From: Artemia franciscana
Lineage: Eukaryota > Arthropoda > Branchiopoda > Anostraca > Artemiidae
DNA length: 64,000 nucleotides
Assembly (NCBI RefSeq): GCF_032884065.1
Contig: NW_027062770.1
Location: forward strand, 1-64,000
Reading direction: 5' to 3'
In this document: positions 32,634 to 61,819 of the stretch, piece by piece
Numbering within the stretch: position 1 is the first letter of the stretch
Layout: the number at the start of each line of letters is the position of its first letter
Program-made: the position numbers and the translations under genes
The notes under the pieces: model-generated
Told to the model about the DNA's origin: nothing
The model's input: the letters and a program-made list of their open reading frames with translations, nothing else
Database searches by the model: none

Positions 32634-35600
32634 TCAAACAGTTCGTGGTAACGAACTGTAGTAAGGAGCGATCCGGCTTAATAGTAACCAAAACTCTAAA
32701 AAATTGAATTTTGATATCAATAGCTACATCAAAAGAATCCCATTTTAATGCTGATTTTAAATATATAAGTTTCATCAAGTTTAGTCTTAGCCATCAAAAG
32801 TTACGAGCCTGAGAAAATTTGCCTTATTTAGGAAAATAGGGGGAAACACCCCCTAAAAGTCGTAGGATCTTAACGAAAATGACACCATCATATTCAGCGT
32901 ATCAGAGAACCCTACTTTAGAAGTTTCAAGCTCCTATCTACAAAAATGTGGAATTTTGCATTTTTTGCCAGAAGACAAATCACGGGTGCGTGTTTATTTG
33001 TTTGTTTTTTTTTGTTTTTTTTTTCCCCCCAGGGGTCATCGTATCGACCAAGTGGTCCTAGAATGTCGCAAGAGGGCTCATTCTAACGGAAATGAAAAGT
33101 TCTAGTGCCCTTTTTAAGTGACCAAAAAAATTGGAGGGCATCTAGGCCCCCTCCCACGCTCATTTTTTTCCCAAAGTCAACGGATCAAAATTTTGAGATA
33201 GCCATTTTATTTAGCATAGTCGAAAATCATAATAACTATGTTTTTGGGGATGACTTACTCCCCCACAGTCCCTGGGGGAGGGGTTGCAAGTTACAAACTT
33301 CAACCAGTGTTTACATATAATAATGGTTATTGGGAAGTGTACAAACGTTTTCAGGGGGGATTTTTTTGGTTTTGGGGGTAGGGTTGAGGGAGGGGGCTAT
33401 GTGGGAGGATATTTCCTTGGAGAAATATGCCATGGGGGGAAAAATTCAATGAAAAGGGCGCAGGACGAATCTGGTCACGTTAGAAAAAAACGTCAAATTA
33501 AGAGTTTAATATACAATGCTGGGTGTTCGGAGCCTCTCTATTATGGAGTATAATTCGAAAATAACACAACTATACGAGCGATAAAACATATATACCACAA
33601 CCATAACTCAACTAACGAAAGAACTGCTAAGAGATAACACAACTATAAAGCGAAAACAGGTGAAAACTAACGGGAAAATAAACGAACTAAGAGGTGGAAG
33701 GGGCCCAGAGAAAAAATATAATCCTTTTTCAATTTTGAGCCTAACTTCCGCAAAGGAGTAATAATGTCAGAAGCCCCGAAATACCGAATTATTTTCTTTT
33801 CAAACAGTTCGTGGTAAGGAACTGTAGTAAGGGGCGACCCGGCTCAAAAGTAAACGGAACTCCAAAAAACGGAATTTTGATGCTAAAAGATACATCAAAA
33901 GAATTGAATTTTTACGCTGATTCTAAATATATAAGTTTACCCTACTATAGAAGTTTCAAGCTCCTATCTACAAATACCGAATTATTTTCTTTTCAAACAG
34001 TTCGTGGTAAGGAACTGTAGTAAGGGGCGACCCGGCTCAATAGTAAACGGAACTCCAAAAAACGGAATTTTGATGCTAAAAGATACATCAAAAGAATTGA
34101 ATTTTTACGCTGATTCTAAATATATAACTTAACCCTACTATAGAAGTTTCAAGCACCTATCTACAAGCCTGAGAAAATTTGCCCTATTTTGGAAAAAAGG
34201 GGGAAACATCCCCTAAAAGTCATAGAATCTTAACGAAAATCACACTATCGCATTTGGTATATCAGAGGACTCTATAGCAAAAATTTCAAGCTCTTATCAT
34301 AAAAATGTGGAATTTTGTATTTTTTGCCAGAAGACAAATCACGGGTGCGTGTTTATTTGTTTGTTTGTTTTTTTTTTGTTTTTTTTTTCCCAGGGGTCAC
34401 CTTATCGACCAAGTGGTCCTTGAATGTCGCGAGAGGGCTCATTCTAACGGAAATGAAAAGTTCTAGTGCCCTTTTTAAGTGACCAAAAAAATTGGAGGGC
34501 AAATAGGCCCCCTCCCATGCTCATTTTTTCCAAAAGTCAACAGATTAAAGTTTTAAGATAGCCATTTTGTTCAACATAGTCGAAAACCATAATAACTATG
34601 TCTTTGGGAATGACTTACTCCTCCACGATCCCTGAGGGAGGGGCTGCAAGTTACAAACTTTGACCAGTGTTTACATATAGTAATGGTTATTGGGAAGTGT
34701 ACAGACGTTTTCATGGGGATTTTTTGGTTTGGGGGGTGGGGTTGATGGGAGAGGGCTTTGTGGGAGGATCTTTCCTTTGAGGAATATGTCATGGGGGAAG
34801 AAAAATTCAATGAAAAGGGCGCAGGATTTTCTAGCATTACTATAAAAAAAACAATGAAAAAATAAACATGAAAACGTTTTTTCAAATGAAAGTAAGGAAT
34901 AGCATTGAAATTTAAAACGAACAGAGATTATTACGCATATGAGGGGTTCTAAAAATACTTTAGCGTAAAGAGCGAGTTATTTAGGAGGAGATAAATACCT
35001 CGCTCTTTATGCTAAAATATTTTTAGTGATTTCAACTATTTATTCTACGGCCTTTTTGATTCAGGGGTCATTCTTAAAGAATTGGGACAAAACTTACGAT
35101 TTAGTGTAAAGAGCGAGGTATTAACGAGGGTACAAACCCCCTCGTACACATAATAAAAATATAAGAATATAAAAGTTTGTTACGTAAGTTAATTCTTAAG
35201 GTACGTATATTTTTTACTAATAAAAACGTTCGTTGAATATTAAAAGTTCTAGTAGCCTTTTTAAGTAACCGAAAAATTGGAGGGCAGCTAGGCCTCCTTC
35301 CCCACCCCTTATTTATCAAAATCGTCTGATCAAAACTAAGAGAAAGCCATTTAGCCAAAAAAAAATTAATATACTAATTTCATTTCAATAATTTATGTGC
35401 GGAGAGCCAAAATCAAACATGCATTAATTCAAAAACGTTCAGAAATTAAATAAAAAAAACTAGTTTTTTGTACTGAAAGTAAGGAGCGACATTAAAACTT
35501 AAAACGAACAGAAATTACTCCGTATATGAAATGGGTTGTCCCCTCCGCAGTCCCTCGCTCTTTACGCTAAAGTTTTTAATTGTTTTAAAAAGTAGAATTG

Positions 35601-35744
35601 TGGCAAAGAGTCAAACTTTAGCGTAAAGAGCGAGGGACTGCGGAGGGGACAACCCATTTCATATACGGAGTAATTTCTGTTCGTTTTAAGTTTTAATGTC
35701 GCTCCTTACTTTCAGTACAAAAAACTAGTTTTTTTTTATTTAAT
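32634..35744 (+). mobile_element. 3.1-kb foldback composite, copy C (inserted in palindrome arm)
   Basis: It starts TCAAACAGTTCGTGG and ends in a large hairpin (35452-35744) followed by TTTATTTAA. The body is a family-A 5' part (32634-33470), an otherwise unique tract (33471-33782) and a second family-A element. That second element starts with a 187-bp tandem duplication (about 33783 and 33970, both with CAGTTCGTGGTAAGGAACTG). The empty site in the opposite palindrome arm (around 30068) shows that the target was AATAAA|TCGTTAAACG. It encodes no recognisable protein. Confidence 0.8.
35452..35744. repeat. Terminal hairpin of composite C
   Basis: Arms of about 120-130 bp are perfect to the eye (GTACTGAAAGTAAGGAGCG ... 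CGCTCCTTACTTTCAGTAC), with a loop of about 35 bp containing TTGTGGCAAAGAG. Confidence 0.85.
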
Positions 35745-36825: not shown

Positions 36826-37345
36826 TAACAAAAGACAAGCTGAGGCAAAAGATAAAGGTACAATAAAAAACGTAATTTTACAAAGGCACGGCTTCTAATG
36901 TAAGGTCCATTGGAACATCATGACATCAAGAAAAACCTCAAGTTGTCTGCGTTTAGAAGACATCTTGAAGTGAATAGTGGTCTGGATAGGAGTGGCAAAA
37001 AAACTTACTTCCAGCTTCTTTTGCTGCAAAGGGTAAGAATAGGAAACTCAATTTTTTCCGCGAGATGAACTGTAGCTGATCGTGCCAGAGGTGTTGAAAT
37101 GAAATATGAAATTCTTTCAATAATCTAGAAAATATTAATGATGCTGTCAAACTAACTAAGTCTATATCCATTGGATACCTAAAAGCTATATTAAACACAA
37201 TGCTTAGTACAGACCCATAAAGGCTATGCACCTACAATATTACCTTTTATTTCTCTTTTTTCGTGGAGCTCTAGATGTAGGAAAACAATCACCTCCAGGA
37301 ATTATGTGTTCTCAATTCACTTTATTGGAATATTAATAATAACAA
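36826..37345. other. Flank between palindrome and Polinton
   Basis: 36830-36860 resembles the palindrome sequence near 30610. The minus-strand frame 37231-36953 (92 codons) has no recognised domain. Confidence 0.35.
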
Positions 37346-37600
37346 AGTAGTATCCTATCAACAAATCTGACAAAAACGCTATTCCGCCATTCCGAAAATG
37401 GCCCTAACCGCCATTCCAACAACAGTCCTGTCCCGTAATTTAGACAACAATCCGACCCCTGGATTCAAGAAATGCCCGTCATTCTGACGACAGCCAGCAG
37501 GTGAATCTTGCGTAATAGAGAATGTTTACTTTTACATCTTACGTAATTGGAGTTGAGGGTGACAGAATCTTGCGTGACTTTGCTTCAATTTTTCCATATT
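37346..37600 (+). repeat. Polinton left terminal inverted repeat
   Basis: Pairs with 51980-52224 reversed. Shared segments include AGTAGTATC, ATTCNGCCATTC-type subrepeats (about 25 bp, two or three copies of a CCATTCCAACAACAGNCCT-like unit), CCTTGGATTCAAG-like, ACGACAGCCAGCAGGTG, AATGTTTACTTTT and TCTTGCGTGNCTTTGCTTCA. Confidence 0.7.
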
Positions 37601-37749
37601 GTTATACTTAAAAAAAACTAAAGGTGTAGGAAAAACCTTTAAGGACGCTGTTAAAGATTTCCTTGGGTTTTGCCTAATAGTTTCTTAAAAAAAAAACTAT
37701 GCTAAATTAAATTTCCTTGGGTGTTATGTTTGAAAACCTACAAGGGTCA

Positions 37750-38110
37750 TAACTTCTTTAGCCCCTGGATTTCCTTTAAAAAATTCTCAAACGGCTTGTT
37801 TTCTTCAAGATTTCTACATCTGTTATGTTAAATGTTTAAAAACCCTGCCTGGACCAGGGTTTTTTACCCCGAGATTTCCTTTTCAATCAGGGATGGACTC
37901 ATCCCTGTTGGTGTAGTCCATTCGAGAGATAAATTGCATACCATTTTCCAAATCATCAAATAAATGATCTGTTTTATAGAAAATGAATCGGTGTCCCCAT
38001 AATATACTTTGGACCTGTCCCTCTTTCGGCCGATAGAGCTTACACACATTTTAATAAAATTACAACATGAGATTTTTTTAAAAGTATATAATACCACTGC
38101 CAGCGGTACT
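37750..38110 (-). pseudogene. Polinton pPolB fragment: palm motif C region
   Basis: B-family DNA polymerases end the catalytic palm with a Tyr-x-Asp-Thr-Asp-Ser motif. Here YGDTDS is encoded at 38001-37984 on the minus strand, intact, in the frame 38097-37864. After it the reading shifts frame and continues with an acidic YKTDHLFDDLENG-like stretch, which fits the segment after motif C. The position just inside the left terminal repeat, transcribed outward, agrees with Polinton layout. Frameshifts make it non-functional. Confidence 0.75.
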
Positions 38111-38229
38111 ACTTTTACTTAATTATATCCTTCTTTTTTCTATTTAGAAGGACTATTTTGGAGTCTATGATCTTTAATCATGTGAAATTCAGATTTGCAA
38201 TTATTAAGGCACATTCTCATTAGTCGATC

Positions 38230-38390
38230 ACAACGCCACAACAGCTCCTATTGCGCATACTCTCACACATTTTAACAAAGGCTAAATTTAAAATAAGCTA
38301 AAAGATCTCTTTTTCGACCTTTGTTTTTGCCTCAGATCGTTTACTGAAAAATGTTTCAATAAACAGCTTAATATATGGCTTCTGATTCAA
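38230..38390 (-). pseudogene. Polinton pPolB fragment: palm motif B region
   Basis: The minus strand reads a KRSEAKTKVEKEIF stretch, an in-frame TAG, then LILNLAFVKMCESMRNR (to about 38247). Polinton polymerases have at this place the motif-B helix with Asn-Ser-x-Phe-Gly-Lys and a Met-x-Asn-x-Arg-x-Arg-like continuation. Several residues are changed and the stop falls on a conserved position. The gene is cut at 38390/38391 by composite C'; it resumes at 41504. Confidence 0.7.
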
Positions 38391-38690
38391 TTAAATAAAA
38401 AAAACTAGTTTTTTGTACTGAAAGTAAGGAGCGACATTAAAACTTAAAACGACAGAAATTACTCCGTATATGAAATGGGTTGTCCCCTCCGCAGTCCCTC
38501 GCTCTTTACGCTAAAGTTTGACTCTTTGCCACAATTCTACTTTTTAAAACAATTAAAAACTTTAGCGTAAAGAGCGAGGGACTGCGGAGGGGACAACCCA
38601 TTTCATATACGGAGTAATTTCTGTTCGTTTTAAGTTTTAATGTCGCTCCTTACTTTCAGTACAAAAAACTAGTTTTTTTTTATTTAATTT
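38391..38690. repeat. Terminal hairpin of composite C'
   Basis: Same hairpin as 35452-35744 in reverse position, with one arm base missing (ACGACAG versus ACGAACAG). Confidence 0.85.
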
Positions 38691-41105
38691 CTGAACGTTT
38701 TTGAATTAATGCATGTTTGATTTTGGCTCTCCGCACATAAATTATTGAAATGAAATTAGTATATTAATTTTTTTTTGGCTAAATGGCTTTCTCTTAGTTT
38801 TGATCAGACGATTTTGAGAAATAAGGGGTGGGGAAGGAGGCCTAGCTGCCCTCCAATTTTTCGGTTACTTAAAAAGGCTACTAGAACTTTTAATATTCAA
38901 CGAACGTTTTTATTAGTAAAAAATATACGTACCTTAAGAATTAACTTACGTAACAAACTTTTATATTCTTATATTTTTATTATGTGTACGAGGGGGTTTG
39001 TACCCTCGTTAATACCTCGCTCTTTACACTAAATCGTAAGTTTTGTCCCAATTCTTTAAGAATGACCCCTGAATCAAAAAGGCCGTAGAATAAATAGTTG
39101 AAATCACTAAAAATATTTTAGCATAAAGAGCGAGGTATTTATCTCCTCCTAAATAACTCGCTCTTTACGCTAAAGTATTTTTAGAACCCCTCATATGCGT
39201 AATAATCTCTGTTCGTTTTAAATTTCAATGCTATTCCTTACTTTCATTTGAAAAAACGTTTTCATGTTTATTTTTTCATTGTTTTTTTTTATAGTAATGC
39301 TAGAAAATCCTGCGCCCTTTTCATTGAATTTTTCTTCCCCCATGACATATTCCTCAAAGGAAAGATCCTCCCACAAAGCCCTCTCCCATCAACCCCACCC
39401 CCCAAACCAAAAAATCCCCATGAAAACGTCTGTACACTTCCCAATAACCATTACTATATGTAAACACTGGTCAAAGTTTGTAACTTGCAGCCCCTCCCTC
39501 AGGGATCGTGGAGGAGTAAGTCATTCCCAAAGACATAGTTATTATGGTTTTCGACTATGTTGAACAAAATGGCTATCTTAAAACTTTAATCTGTTGACTT
39601 TTGGAAGAAATGAGCATGGGAGGGGGCCTATTTGCCCTCCAATTTTTTTGGTCACTTAAAAAGGGCACTAGAACTTTTCATTTCCGTTAGAATGAGCCCT
39701 CTCGCGACATTCAAGGACCACTTGGTCGATAAGGTGACCCCTGGAAAAAAAAACAAAAAAAAAAACAAACAAACAAATAAACACGCACCCGTGATTTGTC
39801 TTCTGGCAAAAAATACAAAATTCCACATTTTTATGATAGGAGCTTGAAATTTTTGCTATAGAGTCCTCTGATATACCAAATGCGATAGTGTGATTTTCGT
39901 TAAGATTCTATGACTTTTAGGGGATGTTTCCCCCTTTTTTCCAAAATAGTGCAAATTTTCTCAGGCTTGTAGATAGGAGCTTGAAACTTCCTTAGTAGGG
40001 TTAAGTTATATATTTAGAATCAGCGTAAAAATTCAATTCTTTTGATGTATCTTTTAGCATCAAAATTCCGTTTTTTGGAGTTCCGTTTACTATTGAGCCG
40101 GGTCGCCCCTTACTACAGTTCCTTACCACGAACTGTTTGAAAAGAAAATAATTCGGTATTTGTAGATAGGAGCTTGAAACTTCTATAGTAGGGTAAACTT
40201 ATATATTTAGAATCAGCGTAAAAATTCAATTCTTTTGATGTATCTTTTAGCATCAAAATTTCGTTTTTTGGAGTTCCGTTTACTATTGAGCCGGGTCGCC
40301 CCTTACTACAGTTCCTTACCACGAACTGTTTGAAAAGAAAATAATTCGGTATTTCGGGGCTTCTGACATTATTACTCCTTTGCGGAAGTTAGGCTCAAAA
40401 TTGAAAAAGGATTATATTTTTTCTCTGGGCCCCTTCCACCTCTTAGTTCGTTTATTTTCCCGTTAGTTTTCACCTGTTTTCGCTTTATAGTTGTGTTATC
40501 TCTTAGCAGTTCTTTCGTTAGTTGAGTTATGGTTGTGGTATATATGTTTTATCGCTCGTATAGTTGTGTTATTTTCGAATTATACTCCATAATAGAGAGG
40601 TTCCGAACACCCAGCATTGTATATTAAACTCTTAATTTGACGTTTTTTTCTAACGTGACCAGATTCGTCCTGCGCCCTTTTCATTGAATTTTTCCCCCCA
40701 TGGCATATTTCTCCAAGGAAATATCCTCCCACATAGCCCCCTCCCTCAACCCTACCCCCAAAACCAAAAAAATCCCCCCTGAAAACGTCTGTACACTTCC
40801 CAATAACCATTATTATATGTAAACACTGGTTGAAGTTTGTAACTTGCAACCCCTCCCCCAGGGACTGTGGGGGAGTAAGTCATCCCCAAAAACATAGTTA
40901 TTATGATTTTCGACTATGCTAAATAAAATGGCTATCTCAAAATTTTGATCCGTTGACTTTGGGAAAAAAATGAGCGTGGGAGGGGGCCTAGATGCCCTCC
41001 AATTTTTTTGGTCACTTAAAAAGGGCACTAGAACTTTTCATTTCCGTTAAAATGAGCCCTCTTGCGACATTCTAGGACCACTTGGTCGATACGATGACCC
41101 CTGTG

Positions 41106-41147
<42 letters not shown>

Positions 41148-41503
41148 ACGCACCCGTGATTTGTCTTCTGGCAAAAAATGCAAAATTCCACATTTTTGTA
41201 GATAGGAGCTTGAAACTTCTATAGTAGGGTTCTCTGATACGCTGAATCTGATGGTGTCATTTTCGTTAAGATCCTACGACTTTTAGGGGGTGTTTCCCCC
41301 TATTTTCCTAAATAAGGCAAATTCTCAGGCTCGTAACTTTTGATGGCTAAGACTAAACTTGATGAAACTTATATATTTAAAATCAGCATTAAAATGCGAT
41401 TCTTTTGATGTAGCTATTGATATCAAAATTCAATTTTTTAGAGTTTTGGTTACTATTAAGCCGGATCGCTCCTTACTACAGTTCGTTACCACGAACTGTT
41501 TGA
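38391..41503 (-). mobile_element. 3.1-kb foldback composite, copy C' (inside pPolB)
   Basis: Inverted copy of 32634-35744. Small frames shared by both copies are identical or differ by single residues, suggesting about 99% identity. Ends are the same (hairpin side at 38391, CTGTTTGA side at 41503). Flanking sequence on the two sides is pPolB, which continues in order. The joined target would be TTCAA|TTGAA, again an A|T point without visible duplication. A pure A tract of 41 bases at 41106-41146 replaces the mixed T/G tract of copy C. Confidence 0.85.
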
Positions 41504-41797
41504 TTGAAGGGCTAATGAATGTTTGTGACATCGAAACCCGGTGCCCAGCATCCCCCGCAAAAGAAAGTGATGTACAACAATATTCTGTTTCGGCTGAAGG
41601 TCGGCAATTCGCTTTTGCTTTAAAGGTTTCCAGTGCATACCTCCATCCTCTACCAAAGATAAGCTATAGGGACTCAATGAATACCTCGGCACAAGTCTAA
41701 TATATGGGAAAACAAAGACCTTTACCGACTCATGAAGCTCCCCTGGCATTTCACCATTAATTTGGAAAAACCATTCTTTTGGTCCATTCTCCTCAAC
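41504..41797 (-). pseudogene. Polinton pPolB fragment: between motifs A and B
   Basis: The minus-strand frame reads SPYSLSLVEDGGMHWKP, then IADLQPKQNIVVHHFLLRGM, then LGTGFRCHKH. In Polinton/Maverick polymerases the stretch between motifs A and B has Leu-Ser-Pro-Tyr, a Lys-x-x-Tyr-Val-Val-His-Tyr strand and a Leu-Gly-Met...Ile-His element in this order. The match in order and spacing supports the call. The frame is open for 149 codons (41935-41486), the best-preserved part of the gene. Upstream it is cut by the LINE tail at 41808. Confidence 0.7.
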
Positions 41798-41807
41798 AGT
41801 TGTAATA

Positions 41808-42736
41808 GATAGATAGATAGATAGATAGTGTATTTCAAAAACCCGTGGGCCATATACACACAAAAATATAAATAAATAACAAACAACCAAGGAAATTAAC
41901 AACAGTACGAACACGCACAAAAAAACAGAATTCAACGCAAAAAGTACCTAATCTAACTACAAAAGAAATTAATCATATAAAACTTTTTCTTCTTATTAAA
42001 GATTTATCTATATATACTCCCACTCGAAATATTGTGGTCGGATTACTATTTTGTAGAATACCCGGAAGCATCAAATTAATTCCATGCAAATAAATTTCCC
42101 GTAAATCCAAGAGCACCGGGCATTTCCGGAGAAAATGATCCAAGTCTTCATCATCAACTTTACAAAGGGGACAAAGATACCGCCTATCAGGACCAACTAT
42201 CATTTTATTTTTGTCGAACGTTTTTTGCCTGTTCTGGATTGGAAGACAATTTGCCCTAAGCTGGATCCAACGACGTGGAATCATAGCCGGTAAATTAAAT
42301 TTAAAATAAACTTCCTCCCCAAAACTAGGTTTTGCCTGATTATAATATTGTAGGGTTGTAGAATTAAAAACCAGCCCTTGCCAATGCTGAATTTCCTGAC
42401 TTTCTAATATAAATCGTACATGGCTTTCTAAATTTGTTGGTACATCATGAGAGCAAAGACCATTATTCCATAAATAAGGCATTCCTACTTTTTCTAGTAA
42501 TGATTTAATTTGGGATGGCCACGAGGTTTTTAAACCACATTTCAACATCTCTTCATATGCCACTCTTACTAGTCTATCTTCATTACTCTTAGTTAACTTC
42601 AACCAGAATCTAAGCATTAAAATATACCTACGTAGCTTTAAAGAAAACAGGCCCATATCGCCTTTCAGAATCTGTGAATGAGTTGTCTGATGTAGACTAA
42701 ACTTATAATGTTGTAATATTGTTGTAAACTTGTAAA
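41808..42736 (-). mobile_element. 5'-truncated LINE copy with 10-bp target duplication
   Basis: The 3' end is on the left: the minus strand ends in a (CTAT)n microsatellite (about 41806-41828) preceded by GGCCCACGGGTTTTTGAAAT. AGTTGTAATA flanks it at 41798-41807 and 42737-42746, a clean target-site duplication. It carries the ORF2 C-terminus (42656-41973). It sits inside pPolB, so it inserted after the Polinton. Confidence 0.8.
41973..42656 (-). pseudogene. LINE ORF2 C-terminal domain with CCHC zinc finger
   Basis: A 227-codon frame downstream of the reverse transcriptase domain of a LINE. Near residue 165 it has CPLCKVDDEDLDHFLRKC, a CX2C..HX4C finger of the zf-RVT type common at LINE ORF2 ends. 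Before it is an IPRRWIQLRANCLPIQ stretch. The start (Met at 42656) is not a real initiation site; similar sequence continues a few codons upstream before 5' truncation. No RT motif is included, so it is inactive. Confidence 0.7.
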
Positions 42737-42746
42737 AGTTGTAATA

Positions 42747-43340
42747 TTGGTTAAATTTGAAGCAAAAGGATTATCCAGCCATTTGTAATTGCAACACTGC
42801 AAATAGAAGTGAGACATTGCCAATGGATGAAGGGATTCATATCCAAGAAAATCGTATTCGAATTTTCACGGGTACGATGTCCATTCCCATTGTTTTCCAG
42901 GATACGATCCCTGTGAAAAACGTACCCTCCCTGAATGGATCTCTCTACAAATAAGTGCTGACACACGTCGGTTATAAGACCTATTTTGCATCACTGATTT
43001 TAAGAATTAACTTCATCCCCTGTAGAGGAGTTGAAAAATAATAAGCAAAATGCAACCAAAATTCCACGCAAACTTTATCCGTGTTTTAACGTCAATGCTT
43101 CGCTTGCAAGGTACATTTTACAATAGTCTTCCCCATTTGTACACCCTCCCTTAGTCAAAATTTTTTAGTAAACTCATAATCGGCAGTGGTGCATTGACGA
43201 TCGTGAAGTGAATCCTAAAATTCCTTGATGGATGGGAATTTTTTCTCACGTAGACTCGAGATTAAGCTGTAGTACTCATTTGGCTTTGGACACTTATTCC
43301 CCTTGCAATTCCAGTCGACTTGTTGGTCAACCAACAATAA
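42747..43340 (-). pseudogene. Polinton pPolB fragment: upstream region and palm motif A
   Basis: The minus strand reads, with frame changes, FPSIKEF..SLHDRQ, then DYEFTKKF, a GEDYCKMYLASEAL segment, YFSTPLQGMKL, then HLFVERSIQGG and LDMN. In Polinton polymerases an acidic Asp-Tyr-Glu-containing linker is followed by a Tyr-x-Asp-Leu-Tyr-Leu strand, a Tyr-Phe-x-x-Pro-Gly strand, a Glu-x-x-x-x-Gly-Gly segment and motif A (Asp-x-Asn-x-x-Tyr-Gly). The Asp of motif A is at 42843-42841. At least three frameshifts and several stops are present. Upstream exonuclease motifs could not be read. Confidence 0.65.
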
Positions 43341-43559
43341 ATTAACTTTTATTTAGTGCAATTGTCTAAGTTTACCAACTGAATTAATCGCCTTGCCTGA
43401 CACTCATTGCAGAATGGCCCAATTTTGACTTTAGGCACTTGTTTGCCGGTCATTCCCCGATTTTAGGATAGATGACGAATTTTTGAGAGAACTCAATAAG
43501 GACTATAATCGTAAGGGACTCTATTTTGAAATCGCTTGTTTTTAATTCGACAATTACCA
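43341..43559. other. Polinton interior, unassigned
   Basis: Possibly more of the pPolB N-terminal part on the minus strand. No motif is clear enough to call. Confidence 0.3.
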
Positions 43560-44039
43560 ATATTTAAAAGACGCAATAAATGGATCAGGAACACTTAATC
43601 AAAGATATGGAGGAAAGATGAAAGGTGTGGGATCTGGTGAATTAGAAAAATATCAGTTCGTAAAACTCTAGAGAAGAAGGTAAAAAATTATTAAAGATAA
43701 TTTTTATTATCTTAATTATAATGATAATTACTATAATTATTTATTATCTTAATTATCTTAATTATAATAATTACATATTTTTTATATTTTGATTATAATG
43801 TTATTAAAGATAATTTTGATGTTATACAACCTCAGCAAGGAACTGGCATTTACATGAATGCAAATGATATGATTGAAAAATTATATGGTTTGCTAGGTAG
43901 TAGAGCTGATGAAAATACATCTGATGAAGTGAGAAATGAAGTTATTGACCTGCTCGATTCATTACTCAAGAATAAAATTATTAAGAAAATGACTATAGTA
44001 CTAATTACAACAACTATTTCAGAATTTCAAATTTTATGA
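43560..44039 (+). pseudogene. Polinton interior ORF remnant, unidentified
   Basis: The plus strand carries a Gly-rich GKMKGVGSGELEKYQFVKL stretch (about 43613-43668), an AT-rich local expansion with a duplicated ATTAAAGATAATTTT (43692 and 43804), then an open frame 43854-44039. That frame has EKLYGLLGSRADENTSDEVR, followed by a Leu/Lys-rich helix. From memory, small helical proteins of this type sit next to capsid genes in Polinton-like clusters, but I cannot name it. Confidence 0.4.
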
Positions 44040-44714
44040 AGATAACTACTTTTCTCGTAAATGGTTTTGACTTTTATTAGTGGTAACAAAATTGAAATCA
44101 AATAGTCTTATACAAGTAATCCGATCAAGTTAGATAGAAACGCTGATTATGAAATAGCTTTAAATCAACGCACACTATGATATTCAGGGTTTAATATTAG
44201 TGATGAATTAAAAAAAAAAAAAAAAAATTGAATGCAGAAAAAAAACAAGGATGAATGGGTTAACTTTGTTATACCCAATGGATTGTATGATGAAGAGCGT
44301 TTAAATTATTTCTTAACTCTTTATTTTAATTCATCTCTAGCTGGATGCCCAATCAGTATATCATCCAATCTAGCAACAAAAAAATCTGTTATTATTTTGA
44401 AAGAGAGTTATAAATTTTGGTTTAATGGTGATTTATGTTTTATTTTAGGATTTGAAAATGAATCTGAACTAAGTAGTAAATAAAATGAAGGCACTGAAGT
44501 TCCCAATATTGCAAAAAATGCTGATAAATACATACTCACTGCTCATTAGTGGAGAGTTAAATTATTAATGGGAATACAACCTCTAATGTGACCTAAAGTT
44601 TTGCTCCAAAAGCAGAGCCTGACACGGTATTCTGTGATATTCCTATAGAAAGGCAATATATTCTTATAAAATTCCTATAGAATTAGAATTCCAATTCCTA
44701 TAGAATTGGCAGTA

Positions 44715-45760
44715 AGCCACGCGTCTTAGTAGTCAAACTGAAGGAGTCAATCGAAACAATCAAGAAGCGACAGAGGATTCTCAGCGCAACCCCGAATCTA
44801 AGAAAATCGACCAACGAACTTGTAAGAAACCAGGTCTACATAAACCCTGATCGAACACCAATGCAAAGGGCACAATTGGCACAACAGTGTCAAGCAAAGT
44901 CGAGCCAAGGTCAGCAAGCACAGCAAAACTCTAACGTTACTAGAAGCACCAATCCCAGATCCAACGGGAACCAAAGAATGAGACGACAAGCGAGACCATC
45001 AAATTGTCCCAGCCAAGGACAGCCCCAAAATGACGAGGAAAAGACCCAAGCCATACAAATGAATCCGAAAAATATAAAATGCCTCTTTTTCAACGCTGAC
45101 TCTCTCTTAAACAAAATGGAGGAAGCAAAGCAGGTTATCAAACTGGAAAATCAGGATATTGTGGCAATAGTAGAAGTTAAACCAAAAAACTACAGACACT
45201 TACCTACCGTCGCAGAGCTCAGTATCGAAGATTATTATCTGTATGAACCAAATCTGGAAGAGAATAAAGGTGGAGGGATAGTCTGCTATTGTCGAAAAGG
45301 CATCAACGTGAATTCCAATATCGATATTAACCGACACGATTGAGCCCAAAGAAAGGCTGTGGATCTTCATTAAGTCTAAAATGACCAGCGACACTGTTCT
45401 TGGTATCTGTTATCGTAGCCCCAACAACACTAACACATCCGACGAAGCTCTGTTCTCGCAAATAGCAGCATTCGCTAAGAATACCAATCAAAAGCTTGCT
45501 ATAATAGGAGATTTCAATCTCCTGAGATAGACCAGAATAGGCAATACACCACATAATCTACCGCAAGCTTGACGAGTAAATTCCTGGACGTTATTAACGA
45601 ACACTTTCTAGAGCAGCTAATATCTGAGCCAACAAGGATGCGGGGATCTGATACACCAAGTATCCTCGGTTTGCAACTGGTAAGCGATGGAGACCTGGTA
45701 TCAGATATTAAGCCGTTGTCACCAATCGGTAAGTCGGATCACTCGGTAATTGTGTTTAGC
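44715..45760 (+). pseudogene. LINE ORF1 tail and EEP endonuclease, frameshifted
   Basis: The frame from 44715 reads VLVVKLKESIETIKKRQRIL, then VYINPDRTPMQR, which resembles the end of the RRM/C-terminal domain of LINE ORF1. It continues without a stop through a Gln-rich linker into the endonuclease start (KCLFFNADSLLNK at about 45076; VAIVEVKP has Val-Glu for the catalytic Glu region). GDFN is at 45507-45518, followed by a one-base loss that shifts frame. The domain ends in SDHS at about 45734-45745. An ORF1 tail in frame with the endonuclease is noteworthy. Confidence 0.7.
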
Positions 45761-47936
45761 CTGGAAACGGAGGTTTTGAGGACACGTGTGGCACCGAAAC
45801 GTAACTACTACAAGGGAGATTACTTTGCTATGAGAAGAGAGCTTTCGGATGTCAACTGGATTGAAGAATTCAGTGGGTTGGAGTCCTTAGACACCATTTA
45901 CACAAGGTTCACAACGATTGTAGCCTCAATGGAAGAACAATTTATTCCTATGCACAAGAAATACACCCGTGTTGCATTACCTAAGGCCCATATTGAACTG
46001 ATTAAAGCAAAACAAAAAGCATAGAGAGAATACAAAAGCAATCGACAAAGTAACGACCGAGAGAAAACATTCAAGAGGCTCCGCAACAGGGATCGGAAAA
46101 CAACAAGAACAGAAGGGAAGCTTAGAGAACGTGAATTAGCTTTCTCCTTGAAAGAAAACCCAAAAAGTTTCTGGAAACACATGAACAGCAAAAGGAAAAA
46201 CAAAAGTGGAGTCTCATTTCTTTACGATCCCGTGAAACAAAAGCTGGTACACGACCCCACAGACCAGGGAAATACTCTCAACAGCCAGTTCTCTTCTGTT
46301 TTTACTCAGGAACCTGAGAACGAAGACCACTTTAGCCGCGAGGAACCAAATTATGGTCTAAGCGACTCGATAAGACCAATAGCGATCAACCATAGCGCTA
46401 TTCTAAAGAGACTCAGAGAACTCAACCCAAGCAAGTCCACAGGCCCAGACAATCTACATCCAAAACTGCTCAAAGAACTTGCAACGGTAATAACAGAACC
46501 ACTAGTCTACATTTACAGAAAGTCTCTTGAACTCAGTAAGCTTCATGCTATTTGGAAAAAATCTATTGTCGTCCCAATATCCAAAGGTCGGAAACGAGAA
46601 GATCCATCAAACTACAGACTGATAAGCCTCACTTGTATCACGTATAAAGTATTTGAGTCTCTTATTGTAGACCACACCCTAGAACACTTAAAACGAGAAA
46701 AAATGCTTTCCGAAAAGCGGTTTGGTTTTCTTAAGGAACGATCTGCAGAAATCCAACTGCTTTGTGCCACAGATGATTGGAAGAAAAACATCGACAAGGG
46801 GTTCCAGATTGATCTCATATACTTGGATCTCAAGAAAGCCTTTGACAAAGTTCCCCATAAGCGTCTCGTCCAGAAGCTCAGGAAATACGATCTCTCCTCA
46901 TCCGGGTCCTCATCCAGTGTTCTTCAATGGATTACGGACTTCTTAACTGGTAGAAAGCAAGTTGCGTAGTAGATAGTCTGAGCAATACCAAAGAGGAAGT
47001 TCTTAGCGGAGTACCCCAGGGGTCAATCCTCGGCCCCCTTCTGTTTAATCTCTAGATCAACGACCTAGTTGAGGACATCGAATCTGACATCCTTATCTAC
47101 GCGGACGACACAAAGCTCTATCTTGTCATCTTGTCAAGTGAAGACATTCACTACCTGCAGGCGGATCTCCAACGAATCGATGACTGGATGAAGAAGTGGA
47201 TCATGGAAATCAATACCCAGAAAAGTCATATCCTCACTCTGGGTCCACAAACTTTTCGTCCTCATACTCTCTTGGTTCTGCTGTGCTCACTCTTAGTAAA
47301 GAAGAAAGAGACCTAGGCATCTTAGTGGATTCTGACCTGAACTTCAGTAGCCACTATGAAGCTGTCGTCAAGAAGGCTTCCAAAATTGCTGGTATGATCA
47401 GAAGAAACTTCTCGTGCGAGGACGACAAAATGCTTGCTACGCTCTATAAGTCCCTTGTCCGCCCGATTCTTGAGTAGTATGGACATTGTTCTACAAGACC
47501 ATACTACAACAAGGACATGGATGCTCTCGAAAATGTTCAGAGGAGGATAACTAAATTCTCTCCCAGGTTACGCTTCCTTCCCTACGAAGAGCGGCTTAGA
47601 AAGCTTGAAATCCCAACCCTCGCCTATAGATTCCATCGTGGTGATCTTATTGAAATGTACAAGCTCTGCAATGGAGCCTATGATAATGTACCAGTCCAGA
47701 GAATCGTGCAGTTCAATAAAAATCATGTCTGAGGACATCAGTACAATGTGAGTACGGAACGCTTTTACAAGGACATGGACCGATGGAGTTTCTGCAACCG
47801 AGTGGTTCAGCATTGGAACAACTTACCAGAAAGAGTAATATGCTCCACAAACCTACTGACATTCAAGAAGGAAGTTGATGAATATTATTCAAGTGACATT
47901 TTCTCCTTGTGCAAATTTAGAAGAAATACAAATTAA
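45760..47936 (+). pseudogene. LINE reverse transcriptase and C-terminal domain, inactivated
   Basis: The RT copies element RNA at the nicked target. The readable parts are GPDNLHPKLLKE and NYRLISLT (46443-46630), motif A LDLKKAFDKVPHKRL (about 46825-46870), motif B GVPQGSILGPLLFN (47009-47050), and motif C YADD (47098-47109). It is interrupted by TAG TAG near 46966-46971, a TAG just after motif B at 47053-47055, frame changes near 47230-47280 and stops at 47475 and 47730. The C-terminal part has RDLGILVDSDLNFS, VQRRITKF, LPYEERLRKLEIPTL and WNNLPERV, typical of CR1/L2/Rex1 elements. All catalytic Asp residues survive. Confidence 0.8.
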
Positions 47937-48133
47937 GATTTTTGTTTTGTAGAGGCTTAACGGCCTGCCATCAAATTTGCGAATATATTTATTTATATCT
48001 TCCAATAAATCGAAAAGAATATATCAACACATTCAAAATTGCTGTAACTGATCAATTGTGTAGATTAATTGATCTGAATGGAGAGAACATTGAATATGTT
48101 TTCGATTTGAAAAAGTTTAATAAGGTTATTTAA

Positions 48134-48640
48134 TAAAATTTGTCTATAATAAATGTTGATCAATAAGAAATATTTATTGTATACAAGACAGTATGGTAGC
48201 GGGATTGGTATTTTCATTAAAATATCGTCAATTCTCAATTATTCAAGACGTCCATAAAAAAAACATAAAAGTCGAATTTCGTGCAATGTATAAACATATG
48301 ATTCAACCTCGGCTGAAATTATTTCAAAAATAGAGCGTCTAAATCTGGAAAAGATTCGATAGATTACAATCAAAGAGAATTAAATGATGTGAGATTTCTA
48401 AAAAATATAGTTTCAAATAACAAGAGATGTTTCAAAAAACATCTTGATGAACAGAAGAAAGGCTTATTAGATGCAACGATTTTGGTGAAGGGACTAAAAC
48501 TACATCACCAGTGTTGCTCTTGCTGACACGCTCAGTGACATTCGAAGCTTCATCTCTACTGTTTGAAAATCTTTTAAAGTGTATTTAAAACAATTAAAAC
48601 AATTTTTTCTGTATATAAATTGCAGTGAATCAAATTGTTC
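48134..48640 (+). pseudogene. Polinton interior remnant, possible small virion protein
   Basis: At 48175-48215 the plus strand reads YTRQYGSGIGIFI. This Gly-rich Tyr-Gly-Ser-Gly-Ile-Gly start is one I recall from small basic proteins beside capsid genes in Polinton-like elements. Basic, Lys-rich stretches follow in other frames (48360-48480). It is too decayed to define ends. Confidence 0.3.
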
Positions 48641-49110
48641 CTCCTTATTGGAAGATATTTGAAAAGATATTTGAAAAATTTTCGATCATTCTACAACCAA
48701 ATATGAATATACATAAATTAATGAAAAAACAATGTGAATGAAAAAACTAAATTATAATTTTATATTGAGAGATGTGGAATCTTGGATTCTTCCAAGTGAT
48801 ATTTACCTTTATGCAAAAGTGAGAATAACATGATTGGATGGAAGAATCATGTAAAATAATGATGGAGCTACTTTAACAAATAATGGATGTAATTTGTTTA
48901 GAAATAATGAACTATATTATCAATGGAACACATTGAAAGGATTGATTATGTAGGTATAACGACTACTGTTAAAAATTTATTATAATTTTCAGATGACTAT
49001 AGTCGAAGTGCTCCTACTAATATGTTTTGGTATGAAAATAAAACCCATACCGTCGATTCACAGTGGAACTAATTTGTTTAATGAAATTATTTACTAATAA
49101 AAGAAGAAGC
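48640..49110 (+). pseudogene. Capsid-like protein remnant (possible major capsid N-terminal region)
   Basis: Readable segments are RDVESWILPSDIYLYAKVRI (about 48767-48826), GATLTNNGCNLFRNNELYY (48861-48918), and FSDDYSRSAPTNMFWYENK (48988-49044), separated by stops and one frame change. An acidic-Ser-Trp-Ile start, a Thr-Leu-x-Asn-Asn-Gly strand and an Asp-Asp-Tyr-Ser-Arg-Ser-Ala...Trp-Tyr segment, in this order and spacing, are features I recall from capsid-like proteins of invertebrate virus-like elements. The later part of the protein is not readable. Confidence 0.5.
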
Positions 49111-49800
49111 TTTTAAGCGAAATTGAAAAGGAAAATAAATATAATCGAACTATTAGTTAAGAAGATTTAGACATTTGAATTGAATACACGATTACATGAA
49201 TGAAATAGGCTAAAAATGATTATTTTTTTAAAGGTTAAATAGTTGATTTATTTGCACCTAAGCGTTTTGATTCCAAAGCAGCTGACCTGGAAAAGAAATT
49301 AAAAAAATTAGATAAAGGTATGGTTTTATAAATATTTTGTCCTTCCGCCATTCTGCAATGTCTGAAGCTTGTAAAAAAGTAAGATTTGATACTCTAAGAT
49401 TGTGTCAAACCGGTCTAAGTATAATTGAAAGGATCTGGTTTCTTTGTTTCCAGTTTTTGTGATCACTCTGTACTTTATCTTTCTGGGACCTTTATTCTAC
49501 TGAAAAAGAGTGACTTATGTAAACTACATAGATGTTACTATAAATACTGTAAAAACCTGCTTTATCTTCTATCGTATAGAAATTGGAGAAAATCCGAAAA
49601 TAAAACTTCCCGAAATAACTGCAAAACTACAGGAGCTTCATGATAAGTTATCGACAAAAGCATATCGACGGCTTACCTCATATCACGGGCTCATCCGTTT
49701 GTTCTGTTTATCTTTTTCCTTGTTGATGTTGTTGTACTTATGTGTTGCTTTCTTTTCTTGTGTTATTTCCTTTTTTTGATGTTTATGACGGTTTGGTTAA
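49111..49800 (+). other. Polinton interior, decayed, unassigned
   Basis: A short helical stretch APKRFDSKAADLEKKLKKLD at about 49255-49315 and overlapping frames at 49425-49779 are visible. Neither gives a recognisable family. Confidence 0.3.
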
Positions 49801-50251
49801 AACAAGCGATTTTTGGACAAAACTCTCCCCAACCATTAAATTCGAGGGAAGGTATGAAGTTACTCTTGTTGATTGAATTCTTACAAATGCATTTGTTATC
49901 CTGAGAAAAGATCTTACATATAAGATTAAAGTTAGACCCTTTGACCTCTCTGACGATGGCTTGGTAGCAAATTTTGACTCCGATGATTACACATTTGCTA
50001 CTATACCCTACGAGGAATACAACAATATATATGAGCTATGTCGAGTTTTAAAACAGAAAATTGTGAGTGGAATAAAGGATGGCTTCACTTTCAGCTCTTC
50101 AAGAGAAAAGAAGAGAATTTACATTACCAATCCATTTGAGAATGAAATTATTGTCCCCAATGAGGATTCAAGTGAGGTTCTCAGTTTTAAAGATCGTATT
50201 ATTAAAGCAAGAAATTTAAGTGGCAAGGATAATGTTATCTATCCAGACTAA
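49801..50251 (+). pseudogene. Second minor-capsid-like/virion protein remnant
   Basis: The plus strand reads TSDFWTKLSPTIKFEGRYEV, then TLVD and a TGA, then from 49961 an open 96-codon frame with EEYNNIYELCRVLKQKI, a strand-rich middle and an acidic end. A Ser-Asp-Phe...Lys-Leu...Ile start leading to Glu-Val-x-Leu-Val is the N-terminal layout I recall for virion proteins of Polinton relatives, followed by a Tyr-Asn-Ser-like helix. The ATG at 49961 is therefore probably internal. Function is inferred. Confidence 0.45.
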
Positions 50252-51023
50252 GCATCCGGCTTCTCATACTTTGAAGTTTTTGTGCAATCATACCTGGGCA
50301 AGTATTTTTTCATTGACCAAGTTTATAATAGTGACAATTGGAGCATAGTAAACCTATAATCTTAGAGTCACAAATCTCTTAAAGACAGGAATTACATTCT
50401 TTAATTTGCACTGCGTATCCTCTATGCAATTTACATGGATTGCATAATCTTCACTTTTCATTATAGTCATCAACAAAAGTACAATTTTCACAGGATGACC
50501 AGCTGCCTATCAAAATGAACATGTATAAGAAATTTTCGATGTTGACCCTCTTACTTCCAAAAAGAAACTAACTGAATGGGGAAAATGAAAGTCTTCTAGG
50601 AGGAAAAAGAGTGACGTCACGAAATATGCTTAGACAGGATTTTTCGAGTTATATCTTGTTGTTTTGAAAAATAGCCGTCTAGTTAGTGGTTAAGAGCAAA
50701 ACCACAATATTATTTTGTATTGTTTCAATTAATGTATCAATAAATTGAGTAAGTGCATCTTGGCCGCGACGTAATGCAATAGCGCAAAGCTGGAGACTCA
50801 TTTCTCATTAAATCGTTAAGCATTTTTTGGGAAAATATTTCCCTTTGAAGAGATACTCTAGAAATCATCATTTAGAATCAAACATTTTTCAAATTTACTA
50901 GACTCTGTATGATTTTTTGTTCCTCAAATCCACTCATTTTTAATCCTAACACTCTCACCACCAATTATAGACTAACAATAGATACTTACTAGTAACAAAC
51001 TTACTCCTTTTGTATAGATTGAA
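50252..51023. other. Polinton interior, unassigned
   Basis: No integrase, ATPase or protease motif could be read on either strand. Confidence 0.3.
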
Positions 51024-51420
51024 CCATGGTTCAATGAATGTGCGGTCAATGTTGGTATTACCAGAACAATTTTTTTGGGTCATGAAACTATTGCTAATAG
51101 ATGCATCTTGAGTTTTTTTGCAAAATTACCGCAAACTCAACCTAACCTAACAAAAAATTGTCTCTAAAAGCCACAGAGCATTTTCGGTCTTAAAACGTTA
51201 GCGATTTCAAATTTCCGATCAACGAAAACGGAAATGATTGCAATTCTATATGCATAAATACAATAATATGTTGGCGAGAATAACTGCATAACGGTGAGTT
51301 TGTGGTAGTTTCGCAAGAGAGTAAAGATTTTCAAAAAGTCAAAATGCATCTATCAACAATAGTTTAATGACCCAAAAAAATTGTTCCAGTAAAACCAGCA
51401 TTGACCGAATGTGTCCATGG
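51024..51420. mobile_element. MITE-like inverted-repeat element
   Basis: Ends start CCATGG and share GGTCAATG(T/C)TGGT, CAGAACAATTTTTTTGGGTCAT-like sequence and ATAGATGCAT in opposite orientation. Arms are about 51024-51142 and 51290-51420 around a 150-bp centre. No coding capacity. It lies inside the Polinton, so it may be a later insertion. Confidence 0.6.
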
Positions 51421-51979
51421 GTATACTATCGTTGGTGCTTGCATGGGGGTTGTTTTTCATCAATTCACTTTTAATTTACATGCAGATAATGTCTGGTAGT
51501 ATTATTTTTGTTTTACTTGAGATTTCTCTGTCTATAACCACGTTATTTTTACCATAGATAACACTTTCGGCATCTAGACAGAATATGTTGCAAGACGTTG
51601 CACGGGTACGTTTGTCTTCTTTTTACCTTTCTTTGAATGGCAATAATAGGAAGATGGTGATAAGATTTATCAACGGGTAACGTTTTACCATCAGCAAGAA
51701 GTTGATCTTCTTCATCAACTAAAGGTTTTAGCGTTTATACTAAAGGTTTATACTCTCAAATATCCACCTCTATAGTACTTGAATTTTCTCGTTACTTCAA
51801 AGAAATTCAACTGCTTACTGTCATAACAATGCACGCATTCATATCCAATAGTGTTACCATTAGCACTTTTTCTCAGCATCTAATGCTACTACAATTTTTA
51901 TTATGAACACACACCTTCTTGGAATATTTCATCTCCATTTTTTTTAAATAATATGTAGATGTCTTTCATTCTAGTGCAA
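51421..51979. other. Polinton right interior, unassigned
   Basis: The minus strand has a short GYECVHCYDSKQLNFFEVTR frame (near 51840-51780) with a Cys-x2-Cys pair. No family is recognised. Confidence 0.3.
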
Positions 51980-52224
51980 ATATAATACTGAAGCAAAGCC
52001 ACGCAAGATTATGTCGCCCTCAACTACAATTATGCAAAAGTAAACATTTTCTAACACTTAACATGCACCTGCTGGCTGTCGTTGCAACGACCTGCACTGC
52101 TTGAATCCAAGGGTAGGGCCGTTGTCAGAATGGCAGGATATGGCTGTTGTCAAAGTGGCAGGATTAGGCTGTTGTTGGAATGGCGAGATAGGGCTTTTGT
52201 CACATTTTTAGATACGATACTACT
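51980..52224 (-). repeat. Polinton right terminal inverted repeat
   Basis: Reverse complement of the left end with about 75% similarity by eye, ending GATACTACT. It contains three CAGAATGGCAGGATA-like subrepeats of about 25 bp. Confidence 0.7.
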
Positions 52225-52837
52225 AATAGAACGGTTAAATTAATTAAGCCATGTTTCACGGATGATTTCGTTTCATGGATTTTCCAGATGAATTATACTT
52301 TTTGGCAATCTATCTAGCGTTAAACAATCTCTCTCTCTATATCGTCTTCAAATGCATTAGGATGAATTATAACAAAGGAATTAAAGCAAATTAAACCCTT
52401 GCGAGGGGAAATAAAAACAAAGCTTTGAACAGATTTGGGTAGTTGACAAGTGGGTCAAGCTTAGTTGGCTTGGAGCTGTGATGACAAATATTAGTAGAGA
52501 TATTTACAAATATGATTATTTCTTATTGTTTTGATGAATTTCTCTTCCCCGTAATGCAGTCCCCCCACCCAAGAAATACAATCTGCCTGTGTCTTTGTCC
52601 CACACGTTTTCTTGAGACATCAAAGAAGCAATTATAAGACTAATTAAAATTATGATATTGGACAAGACATAACTGTGAGGTGGTCAGATCTATGAGGAGT
52701 ATAAGGAGGTGTCTGTGGTCTAATGTCATTTTCAGCCCTTTTGGTGTTTTGTTGGTAAAAGAAGACTGAAACTAGATCAGAAAAATACAACTAGATGTTA
52801 AGAATAAAAAAAGACATAGATTGAGGTATATAGTGGG
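52225..52837. other. Unassigned stretch right of the Polinton
   Basis: AT-rich. No gene or repeat match is recognised. Confidence 0.35.
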
Positions 52838-55343: not shown

Positions 55344-55439
55344 TCTATATATATATAAAAATATGTTGTCTGTGTCTGTGTGGGTCTGTCTGTAGGGTGA
55401 CGTCATGTTTGTGTGTTTACTGACGTCATGTTTTCGACT

Positions 55440-56460
55440 GACGAAATTACAGACCGGGACATCGGGACACAAATGACGACCGGGACGCCGGCACATAGGG
55501 AATATAAATGACGAACGGGACACTCAAAGAGAAAGCGACCGGGACGCAAGGAATGTTCGATTAGCAATCACCATCAACAAAGCACCAGGACACATGTGAC
55601 GACCGGGACACAGGGAGTATAAATGACGACCAGAACATAAGTAAAAAAAAAACTAACAAAAAAGGTAAAAACTACAAAAAAACTAAAAATAAAAAAACTA
55701 AAAACTAATAAAACAACTAAAAAAGCTAAAAAAACTAAAAAAACTAAAAAAAAAAAAAAAAAAAAAAAGGAAAAAAAAATGAAAAATAAAGGAGAAAAAC
55801 AAAACTAAAAAAATAAAATAAAAAAAATAAAAAGAAAAAACTAAAAAAACTAAAAAAAGTAAAAACCAAAAAAAAAAAAACTAAAAAGAAAAAAGGGGGA
55901 AAATACAAAATTTATTTCATCATATACCATTTCAAAAACGAATGTATATACAGACCGGGACACCGGGATACAAATGACGACCGGGACACAGGGAATATAA
56001 ATGACGACCGGGACACAGGGACACAACTGCAACGGGGACGCCGGGGGGCACAAGGGGATATATAAATGACGACGGGGACACAGGGAATGTTTGATTAGCA
56101 ATCACCATCAACAAAGCTCAAGGGCAATCATTAGAATCATGAGGTATAACTAAAAAAACTAAAAAAAGGTAAAAAACTAAAAACTAAAAAAAGACCAATT
56201 CAAAAACGAATGTATATACAGACCGGGACACCGGGACACAAATGACGACCGGGACACCGGGAGACAAGGAATATAAATGATGCCCGGGACACTCAAAGAG
56301 AAATCACAGACTGGGACACCGGGACACAAATGACGACCGGGACACAGGGACACAACTACAACGGGGATGCCGGGGGGCACAGGGAGATGTATAAATGACG
56401 ACAGCAACAAAGGGAATGGTCGATTAGCAATCACCATCAACAAAGCTCAAGGGCAATCAT
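55440..56460. repeat. Minisatellite-like GACCGGGACA repeats within the Helitron
   Basis: Many ATGACGACCGGGACACAGGG-type units lie in two long direct copies plus a shorter first block at 55450-55640. Each copy ends ATTAGCAATCACCATCAACA. Confidence 0.8.
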
Positions 56461-56467
56461 TAGAATC

Positions 56468-56610
56468 ATGAGGTATAGATCTGAATACGAATTGTTTTCC
56501 CATGGACCATTATATGTTGCATGTTCAAGAGTTCAAGGTTCAAACCTGACAATCTATTTATATGCACAGACAATGGAACAGCAAAGAATGTTGTATATTC
56601 GCAAGTTTTA
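56468..56610 (+). pseudogene. Helitron Rep/helicase C-terminal remnant
   Basis: The frame reads FSHGPLYVACSRVQGSNLTI and onward. The Pif1-like helicase of Helitrons ends with motif VI in a Ser-His-Gly-x-Leu-Tyr-Val-Ala-Cys-Ser-Arg-Val stretch, matched here over 12 residues. Rep and most helicase motifs are deleted. The reading frame continues into the (AT)n tract, so the end is degenerate. Confidence 0.8.
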
Positions 56611-56620
56611 CGTAGTTAAA

Positions 56621-56621
<1 letters not shown>

Positions 56622-56707
<86 letters not shown>
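56622..56707. repeat. (AT)n microsatellite inside the Helitron
   Basis: About 86 bp of AT dinucleotides between the helicase remnant and the 3' hairpin. Confidence 0.95.
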
Positions 56708-56710
<3 letters not shown>

Positions 56711-56819
56711 AGGTGGGACATAGGGAAACAACTACAATGGCGCGTAACTAATATGGCACGTAACGACTTACGCGCGCGGTGGGGCTTGGGGGGGCGCGAA
56801 GCGCCACCCCAACAGCTAG

Positions 56820-61800: not shown

Positions 61801-61819
61801 GGTGAGTTTAACTTGGAAA

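Follow-up and report, generated by a model that had tools for sequence, protein, structure and literature searches.

We analysed a 64,000-nucleotide window of the genome of the brine shrimp Artemia franciscana (RefSeq assembly GCF_032884065.1, contig NW_027062770.1, positions 1 to 64,000 of the forward strand). Positions 37346-52224 of this window very probably hold a heavily decayed Polinton (Maverick), an ancient, dead fossil lying under nested insertions. Inverted repeats bound the locus. Between them are minus-strand remnants of the protein-primed polymerase, pPolB, a plus-strand fragment of a penton-like gene, four other mobile elements (inserts 1 to 4, from left to right) and, also lodged inside the Polinton, part of a second virus-like element, which we call block B. 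The fossil is a mosaic, its capsid-like pieces coming from two sources. The longest frame wholly inside the locus has 124 amino acids (aa), and a frame of 153 aa proved to be a piece of pPolB running into the margins of both insert 1 and insert 2, so an earlier note made from the letters of the window was right that no piece is obvious as a long open reading frame (ORF).

The left terminal inverted repeat (37346-37600, plus strand) begins AGTAGT and the right one (51979-52224, minus strand) finishes ACTACT. In a gapped local alignment of 37346-37600 with the reversed 52224-51979, 193 of 244 aligned positions were identical (79%). The alignment begins exactly at the AG of 37346 and the CT of 52224, and its score of 192 compares with a maximum of 33 among 200 single-base shuffles. 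This bears out the inverted ends of about 250 bp (AG...CT) that the earlier note had described. According to the part of PMC8097293 used here, vertebrate Mavericks have two end motifs, of which (AGT)2//(ACT)2 is one, and intact copies show 6-bp duplications and carry inverted ends 46-1447 bp long. The window has the same motif, and the length of its inverted ends lies inside that range.

We searched the genome (1.27 Gb, 6468 contigs) with the 255-bp left end and obtained 40 scored matches, the best of 197 candidates. Among these, only this site, C4196 (98%) and C1:41.668 Mb (96%) matched over the full length, and the mirror ends matched the query at 75% in the window and 77% in C1. The right end scored 167 bits, whereas matches elsewhere outside the locus reached at most 107 bits, in alignments lacking the outer 77 or more bases. 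C1:41.650-41.672 Mb is colinear with window positions 58.5-28 kb, flanks included and insertions aside, with a mismatch of about 2-4% in pieces outside repeats. C17:30.331-30.336 Mb corresponds to window 46262-51266 at 98.3%. The alignments make it most likely that C1:41.65 Mb, C4196 and C17:30.33 Mb represent redundant haplotypes of a single locus, although a recent segmental duplication could also have produced such copies. The 98.3% stretch terminates at a 100-N scaffold gap at C17:30336007 (L055 5008-5107), which suggests a redundant haplotype contig assigned to another chromosome scaffold.

The haplotypes also bear on the target duplication. The hexamers flanking the C1 allele, AACAAA and AACAGA, agree at five of six positions. 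The left hexamer of C4196 is likewise AACAAA; the window, which is one A shorter there, has TAACAA (37340-37345) on the left and AATAGA (52225-52230) on the right.

As support, the earlier note had asked for further copies bearing these ends. We found the complete 255-bp end only in the apparent haplotypes, but the inner part has 35 other scored matches, mostly covering positions 130-242 of the query. The end motif recurs at such loci: AGTAGT lay within a 250-base stretch round the expected terminus, mostly 13-84 bases inside the expected point, at 16 of 25 inner-end loci (14 of 21 with near-identical loci counted once), compared with one of 25 control stretches. The right subterminal DNA of the window, 50276-51970, was found at least partly at ten of the 25 inner-end loci with 68-79% identity; treating three near-identical C411 loci as a single one reduces this number to eight. 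It is non-coding and falls into two parts, 50276-51042, present wholly or partly in ten other inner-end loci at 73-79% DNA identity, and 51407-51970, common to L027 and L029 at 68-76%. At C13:1.297-1.307 Mb, which we read except for about 1.6 kb between L027 and L056, L027 holds the inner end and subterminal DNA of the same kind, and beyond it L056 has, in mirror order, genes that are protease-, major capsid protein (MCP)- and penton-like. This relative thus has the inner end and the subterminal region in common with the window, and its gene order matches. By the look of the ORFs, an element of the non-long-terminal-repeat (non-LTR) kind seems to lie among its capsid-like genes.

The polymerase was recovered with a host ORF of 1024 aa (95.5 bits to PF03175) as the query and four residual segments of the locus as the database. 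Four minus-strand pieces proved colinear with this host Polinton pPolB: residues 516-566 and 573-662 at 42895-43313 (joint expectation value, E, 6e-7), residues 709-806 at 41513-41803 (E 2e-11) and residues 816-892 at 38139-38381 (E 4e-8). With the segments reversed, the best match to the same protein had an E of 0.45. The minus-strand pPolB of the earlier note is upheld, its pieces lying in order. When the whole window served as the database, two pPolB stretches were recovered with E from 1.6e-9 to 5e-4, and one partial query gave 0.049. Further to the left, 37867-38118 (minus strand) is probably another remnant, carrying what we take to be a YGDTDS-like motif; alone it had no credible profile match, with nothing in Pfam or PDB and PHROG matches only at E of 0.04 or above. 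The DNA tells the same story at C1:35.5 Mb (L062), where homologous pPolB sequence, 71-76% identical, runs unbroken across the positions of inserts 1 and 2 (71.2% over 42743-43064, 76.5% for 41513-41803 and 71.6% over 38231-38385). The 3' part of the gene faces the left end, and the subterminal DNA next to it is similar to portions of L024, L030 and L039.

Near the right end, 49781-50268 (plus strand) is a fragment of the Polinton's own penton-like gene, which is cut at about half its length. Positions 49781-50209 match, at E 4e-9, the gene lying next after the integrase in the host's Polintons, and the DNA of the fragment is 78% identical to C13:3.538 Mb (L054), where integrase-, penton-, p148-, MCP- and protease-like genes stand in a row. 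The L054 match ends at 50268 and the subterminal DNA begins at 50276, while other loci continue otherwise there; sequence that relatives carry beside the subterminal region is missing at this junction. In a protein search the 124-aa open piece (49877-50248) had two public matches without a name, 61% and 53% identical to it. Gene order, compared with that given in the part of PMC4028283 used here, is the basis for calling genes of this lineage penton and MCP.

Compared with Polintons and Mavericks, as far as the parts of PMC8097293 and PMC4028283 used here describe them, the window has the AGT ends, pPolB and a penton-like gene, and its allele has a probable 6-bp duplication, matching at five of six positions. 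It differs in being heavily deleted, with no recognisable integrase, ATPase, MCP or protease, and in having pPolB and the penton-like fragment on opposite strands. Queries from relatives found no credible match in the window for an integrase of the retroviral type, which is present in L050 (PF00665) and L054, and we read its absence as loss because the ends and pPolB remain. The packaging ATPase, found elsewhere in the genome in L007 (PF04665), and the cysteine protease also had no credible match in the window (best E 0.041 and 0.18, respectively), and the MCP of the Polinton lineage was not found there. Other Polintons in the same genome match the Pfam integrase (PF00665), ATPase (PF04665) and pPolB (PF03175) families. 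This class of virus-like transposon is already known, and the locus is a further member of the Polinton kind. The earlier note had left the choice between a Polinton lineage and an adintovirus-like relative; the ends, the ordered pPolB, the allele's probable duplication and the C13:1.297-1.307 Mb relative favour the Polinton, but a single element does not account for all the capsid-like pieces.

Established Polinton biology suggests how such a locus would have come about. The element would have been copied by its protein-primed polymerase from the inverted ends, and its integrase would then have inserted it, giving the AGTAGT...ACTACT ends and the 6-bp duplication. If the ends were alike at insertion, they would since have drifted to 79% identity. 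The genes for integrase, packaging ATPase, the 148-aa protein, major capsid and protease can no longer be recognised in the window. Block B, part of the second virus-like element, would have come to lie mid-locus and later been split by a non-LTR retrotransposon, and a short inverted-repeat element and two insertions lacking in the other haplotype would also have arrived. The parts of this mechanism seen here are the ends, the duplication (at five of six positions) in the allele, the pPolB remnants and the penton-like fragment. We found no sign of present function, and the locus is best described as dead.

Several results weigh against a Polinton. The duplication is unreadable in the window's own hexamers and visible only in the allele, with one mismatch. 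No full-length copy of the end was found outside the apparent haplotypes among the best 40 of 197 candidates, and the window is absent from the 44 genome-wide PF03175 matches. When ten pieces of the window were scanned against Pfam and PHROG, no credible match emerged, the best being a PHROG family of unknown function at E 0.0037. The pieces are short, which would explain this, and the evidence came from the host's own relatives instead. The relatives' capsid-like proteins are themselves hard to place: those of the Polinton lineage had no credible Pfam match, the MCP-like protein reached at best E 0.38 in PDB, and its fold model was useless (mean predicted local distance difference test score, pLDDT, 31). 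Their protease-like gene also had no Pfam match. Scans of viral contigs returned no usable relative, the one with a degenerate motif giving a single locus with an ORF lacking a Pfam match, and phage records gave weak matches only (best E 0.2).

The orientation of pPolB is a further difficulty. We counted matches of different kinds lying within 20 kb of each other, leaving this locus aside and taking the 150 highest-ranking matches of each kind; the counts are therefore minima, and some of the pairs may have arisen from others by copying. pPolB and the Polinton penton formed at least 16 pairs where 0.69 were expected, and 14 of these lay on the same strand, whereas the two are opposed in the window. 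An inversion or other rearrangement, or a fusion of two related elements, must therefore be assumed. On this basis two Polinton insertions, one supplying the left end and the minus-strand pPolB and the other the right end and the penton-like fragment, could have been joined by deletion or inversion, and L062 shows pieces of two Polintons adjacent and in opposite orientation. We think two insertions unlikely, since the right end matches the left-end query far better (167 bits) than does anything outside the locus (at most 107 bits among the best 40 of 197), and the flanking hexamers of the allele agree at five of six positions. We had considered the opposite-strand pairs at C1041 and C1:35.5 Mb as a precedent for the arrangement within one element, but C1:35.5 Mb proved to hold parts of two Polintons in opposite orientation.

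The earlier note took the plus-strand capsid-like remnants as one set. This stands for the penton-like fragment at 49781-50209 but not for the larger share of the set, 43458-49340 (plus strand): this is block B, a left-truncated copy of a second virus-like family, split by insert 3. Within 43458-44662 and 47995-49328, stretches of its DNA share 73-88% identity with C7:61.4819-61.4855 Mb; C11:40.479 Mb and C14:23.555 Mb match it over shorter lengths. It contains the first part (43949-44662, no Pfam match) and, from DNA comparison with paralogs, the last part (47995-48127) of a gene, PX-B, that we take by its look to be penton-like; a protein search with 44232-44480 found no public match. Positions 48441-49059 correspond to the sequence just before and into a double-jelly-roll MCP-like gene of L058, and 49071-49340 is the right inverted end of element B, whose partner end is seen in C7. 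The C7 copy has its own inverted ends, 79% identical over 337 positions, and an MCP-like gene (C7:61484380-61485144) that matches PF21738 (double jelly roll) with 30.8 bits, above the cut-off, with stops; a piece of this gene alone scored 22.5 bits, below the cut-off of 27. Relative to these paralogs (C7:61.48 Mb, C11:40.48 Mb and C14:23.55 Mb), the window copy has neither the left half nor the left end, nor the part of the MCP-like gene recognised by PF21738; of the two ends it keeps the right one only. Left of the penton-like gene in the C7 copy, L060 3103-3660 (minus strand) has frames without a Pfam match that resemble an adenovirus-type protease gene region.

The company that block B keeps elsewhere in the genome distinguishes it from the Polinton. 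The 28 PF21738 matches and 149 matches of the B penton formed 11 pairs within 20 kb, ten on the same strand, where 0.13 were expected. Such neighbouring matches occur, for instance, around C4:47.13 Mb, C5:60.06 Mb and C8:36.22 Mb. PF21738 and the 44 PF03175 matches formed none (0.04 expected). Among the best 150 of each kind, block B formed at least one pair with pPolB and none with the Polinton penton (0.68 expected in each case), and none with the inner end (0.16 expected). Polinton-family queries found no match at E up to 0.1 in L060 and L061, round the C7 copy. Because it pairs with the double-jelly-roll capsid gene and not with pPolB or the Polinton penton, block B is best read, on these sequence comparisons, as a different element family that has come to lie inside the Polinton.

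A Polinton that had exchanged its capsid module with another double-jelly-roll lineage before it integrated would leave a recombinant fossil of much the same appearance. The B penton-like and MCP-like sequences do sit between the Polinton ends, where no MCP, p148 or protease gene of the Polinton itself was found, and a single B end is present. Such an origin is nevertheless improbable given the pairing counts, the inverted ends that B has of its own in C7, the existence of relatives with the Polinton's own capsid-like genes, and L062, which has this kind of pPolB without B. For block B as a separate insertion within the Polinton, a further step can be proposed. Family B may be a second, comparably numerous element with a double-jelly-roll capsid and its own inverted ends but without a Polinton polymerase, either a capsid-bearing element not yet described or a satellite dependent on Polintons or another virus, and the fossil would then preserve both interlocked. 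We regard this as a tentative and rather unlikely proposal. By look we take family B to be adintovirus-like; adintoviruses carry pPolB and an integrase.

The ends could also be a foldback or satellite-rich repeat that is unrelated to Polintons and trapped the virus-like pieces by chance. The inner end does flank a palindromic element without Polinton-gene matches at C7:41.779-41.790 Mb. However, the same inner end and subterminal DNA adjoin Polinton-family genes at C13:1.297 Mb, the inner end formed two pairs with the penton and two with pPolB (lower bounds among the best 150 of each kind, 0.16 expected in each case), and the AGTAGT motif recurs. This explanation is disfavoured and we consider it very unlikely. 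We had taken the pair at C7:41.78 Mb for a relative with the same ends before it proved to be the palindrome. It is a large palindrome of nested tandem repeats (L044, L045) whose ends contain both the inner Polinton end and a stretch resembling window 61719-62462, and it is possibly a non-autonomous derivative. That the host has kept the ORF at 49877-50248 for a function is scarcely credible: the three haplotypes containing the frame all keep it open and the ratio of non-synonymous to synonymous substitution rates (dN/dS) is about 0.58 against the C13 relative, but past selection on an active element would give the same ratio and seems to fit it, the gene is truncated at about half its length, and the changes between haplotypes (two synonymous and seven non-synonymous against C1, dN/dS about 0.9; none and two against C17) look like those expected under drift.

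The insertions give the Polinton fossil a relative chronology. Insert 1 (38396-41503) is a dispersed repeat and insert 2 (41808-42733, minus strand) the tail of a non-LTR retrotransposon with a zf-RVT match below the cut-off; both are absent from the C1 allele. Insert 3 (44663-47994, plus strand), a non-LTR retrotransposon that we take to be CR1-like, lies inside PX-B and matches RVT_1 (E 1.7e-11). It is present in the C1 allele and absent from the paralogs L057 and L058, the C7 and C11 copies of block B lacking it; the C14 match ends before that point. The earlier note had recognised these three insertions but its count was incomplete, as insert 4 (51043-51406), a short element with 75-bp inverted arms, has an empty site in L027. 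The note's figure of about 7.5 kb for the original content is likewise an overcount, because insert 4 and about 2.5 kb of block B (less its CR1-like insert) are foreign to the Polinton. At the point corresponding to window 49785 the C1 allele carries an insertion of about 2.0 kb that is absent from the window, and window 55345-56855 (1.5 kb) is missing from this allele.

The ends have diverged by 0.245 substitutions per site (Jukes-Cantor), compared with about 2-4% between haplotypes, so the age of the Polinton insertion should be several times that of the haplotype split, provided that the element had identical ends when it inserted. Haplotypes and paralogs compared together would place the events at this one site in the order Polinton and block B, non-LTR insert, haplotype divergence and, last, the insertions found in a single haplotype.

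The fossil has relatives of differing closeness in its host. C13:3.538 Mb, C13:1.297-1.307 Mb and C1:35.5 Mb are the nearer ones, with 78-83% DNA identity in the penton-like gene (the 83% over 147 bp only) and, for C1:35.5 Mb, 71-76% in pPolB. They keep some of the capsid-like genes lost by the window and have no block B where they were read. A different lineage is represented at C583, C991, C4942 and C8:26.44 Mb, whose protein identity to the window is 27-34% in the pPolB pieces and 31-33% in the penton-like gene, and in which the 255-bp end was unmatched in the stretches examined. This family (L046-L052, L003, L005-L007) has long open frames for pPolB, ATPase, an integrase with a chromodomain and capsid-like genes, and the C4942 and C8 copies match PF03175 without a stop. 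The MCP-like protein of other host Polintons had ten public matches, all of them 'hypothetical protein' (QYM36_...) of Artemia franciscana.

In the literature searched, we came across no account of Polintons in Artemia, and neither name appears in the part of PMC11492255 used here. The pPolB piece at 41513-41803 had at least 150 scored matches in the genome (the best 150 of 817 candidates), as did the Polinton penton piece (the best 150 of 744), both sets including the locus and its haplotypes. The B penton piece also had at least 150, and many matches of all three kinds have stop codons in the matched stretch. Capsid-bearing elements thus seem to form a large and much-decayed population in Artemia franciscana, and the numbers of pPolB and penton matches suggest that Polintons have colonised this species long and often. 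With the order of events readable at one site, the brine shrimp is a useful place to date and compare the capsid-bearing transposons of arthropods.

Elsewhere in the window, further copies of the insert 1 repeat, seen through matches to L057, lie at 2623-4207, 18474-20140, 33993-35679 and 58731-60375, and an open frame at 63323-63784 (minus strand) may belong to a Penelope-type reverse transcriptase.

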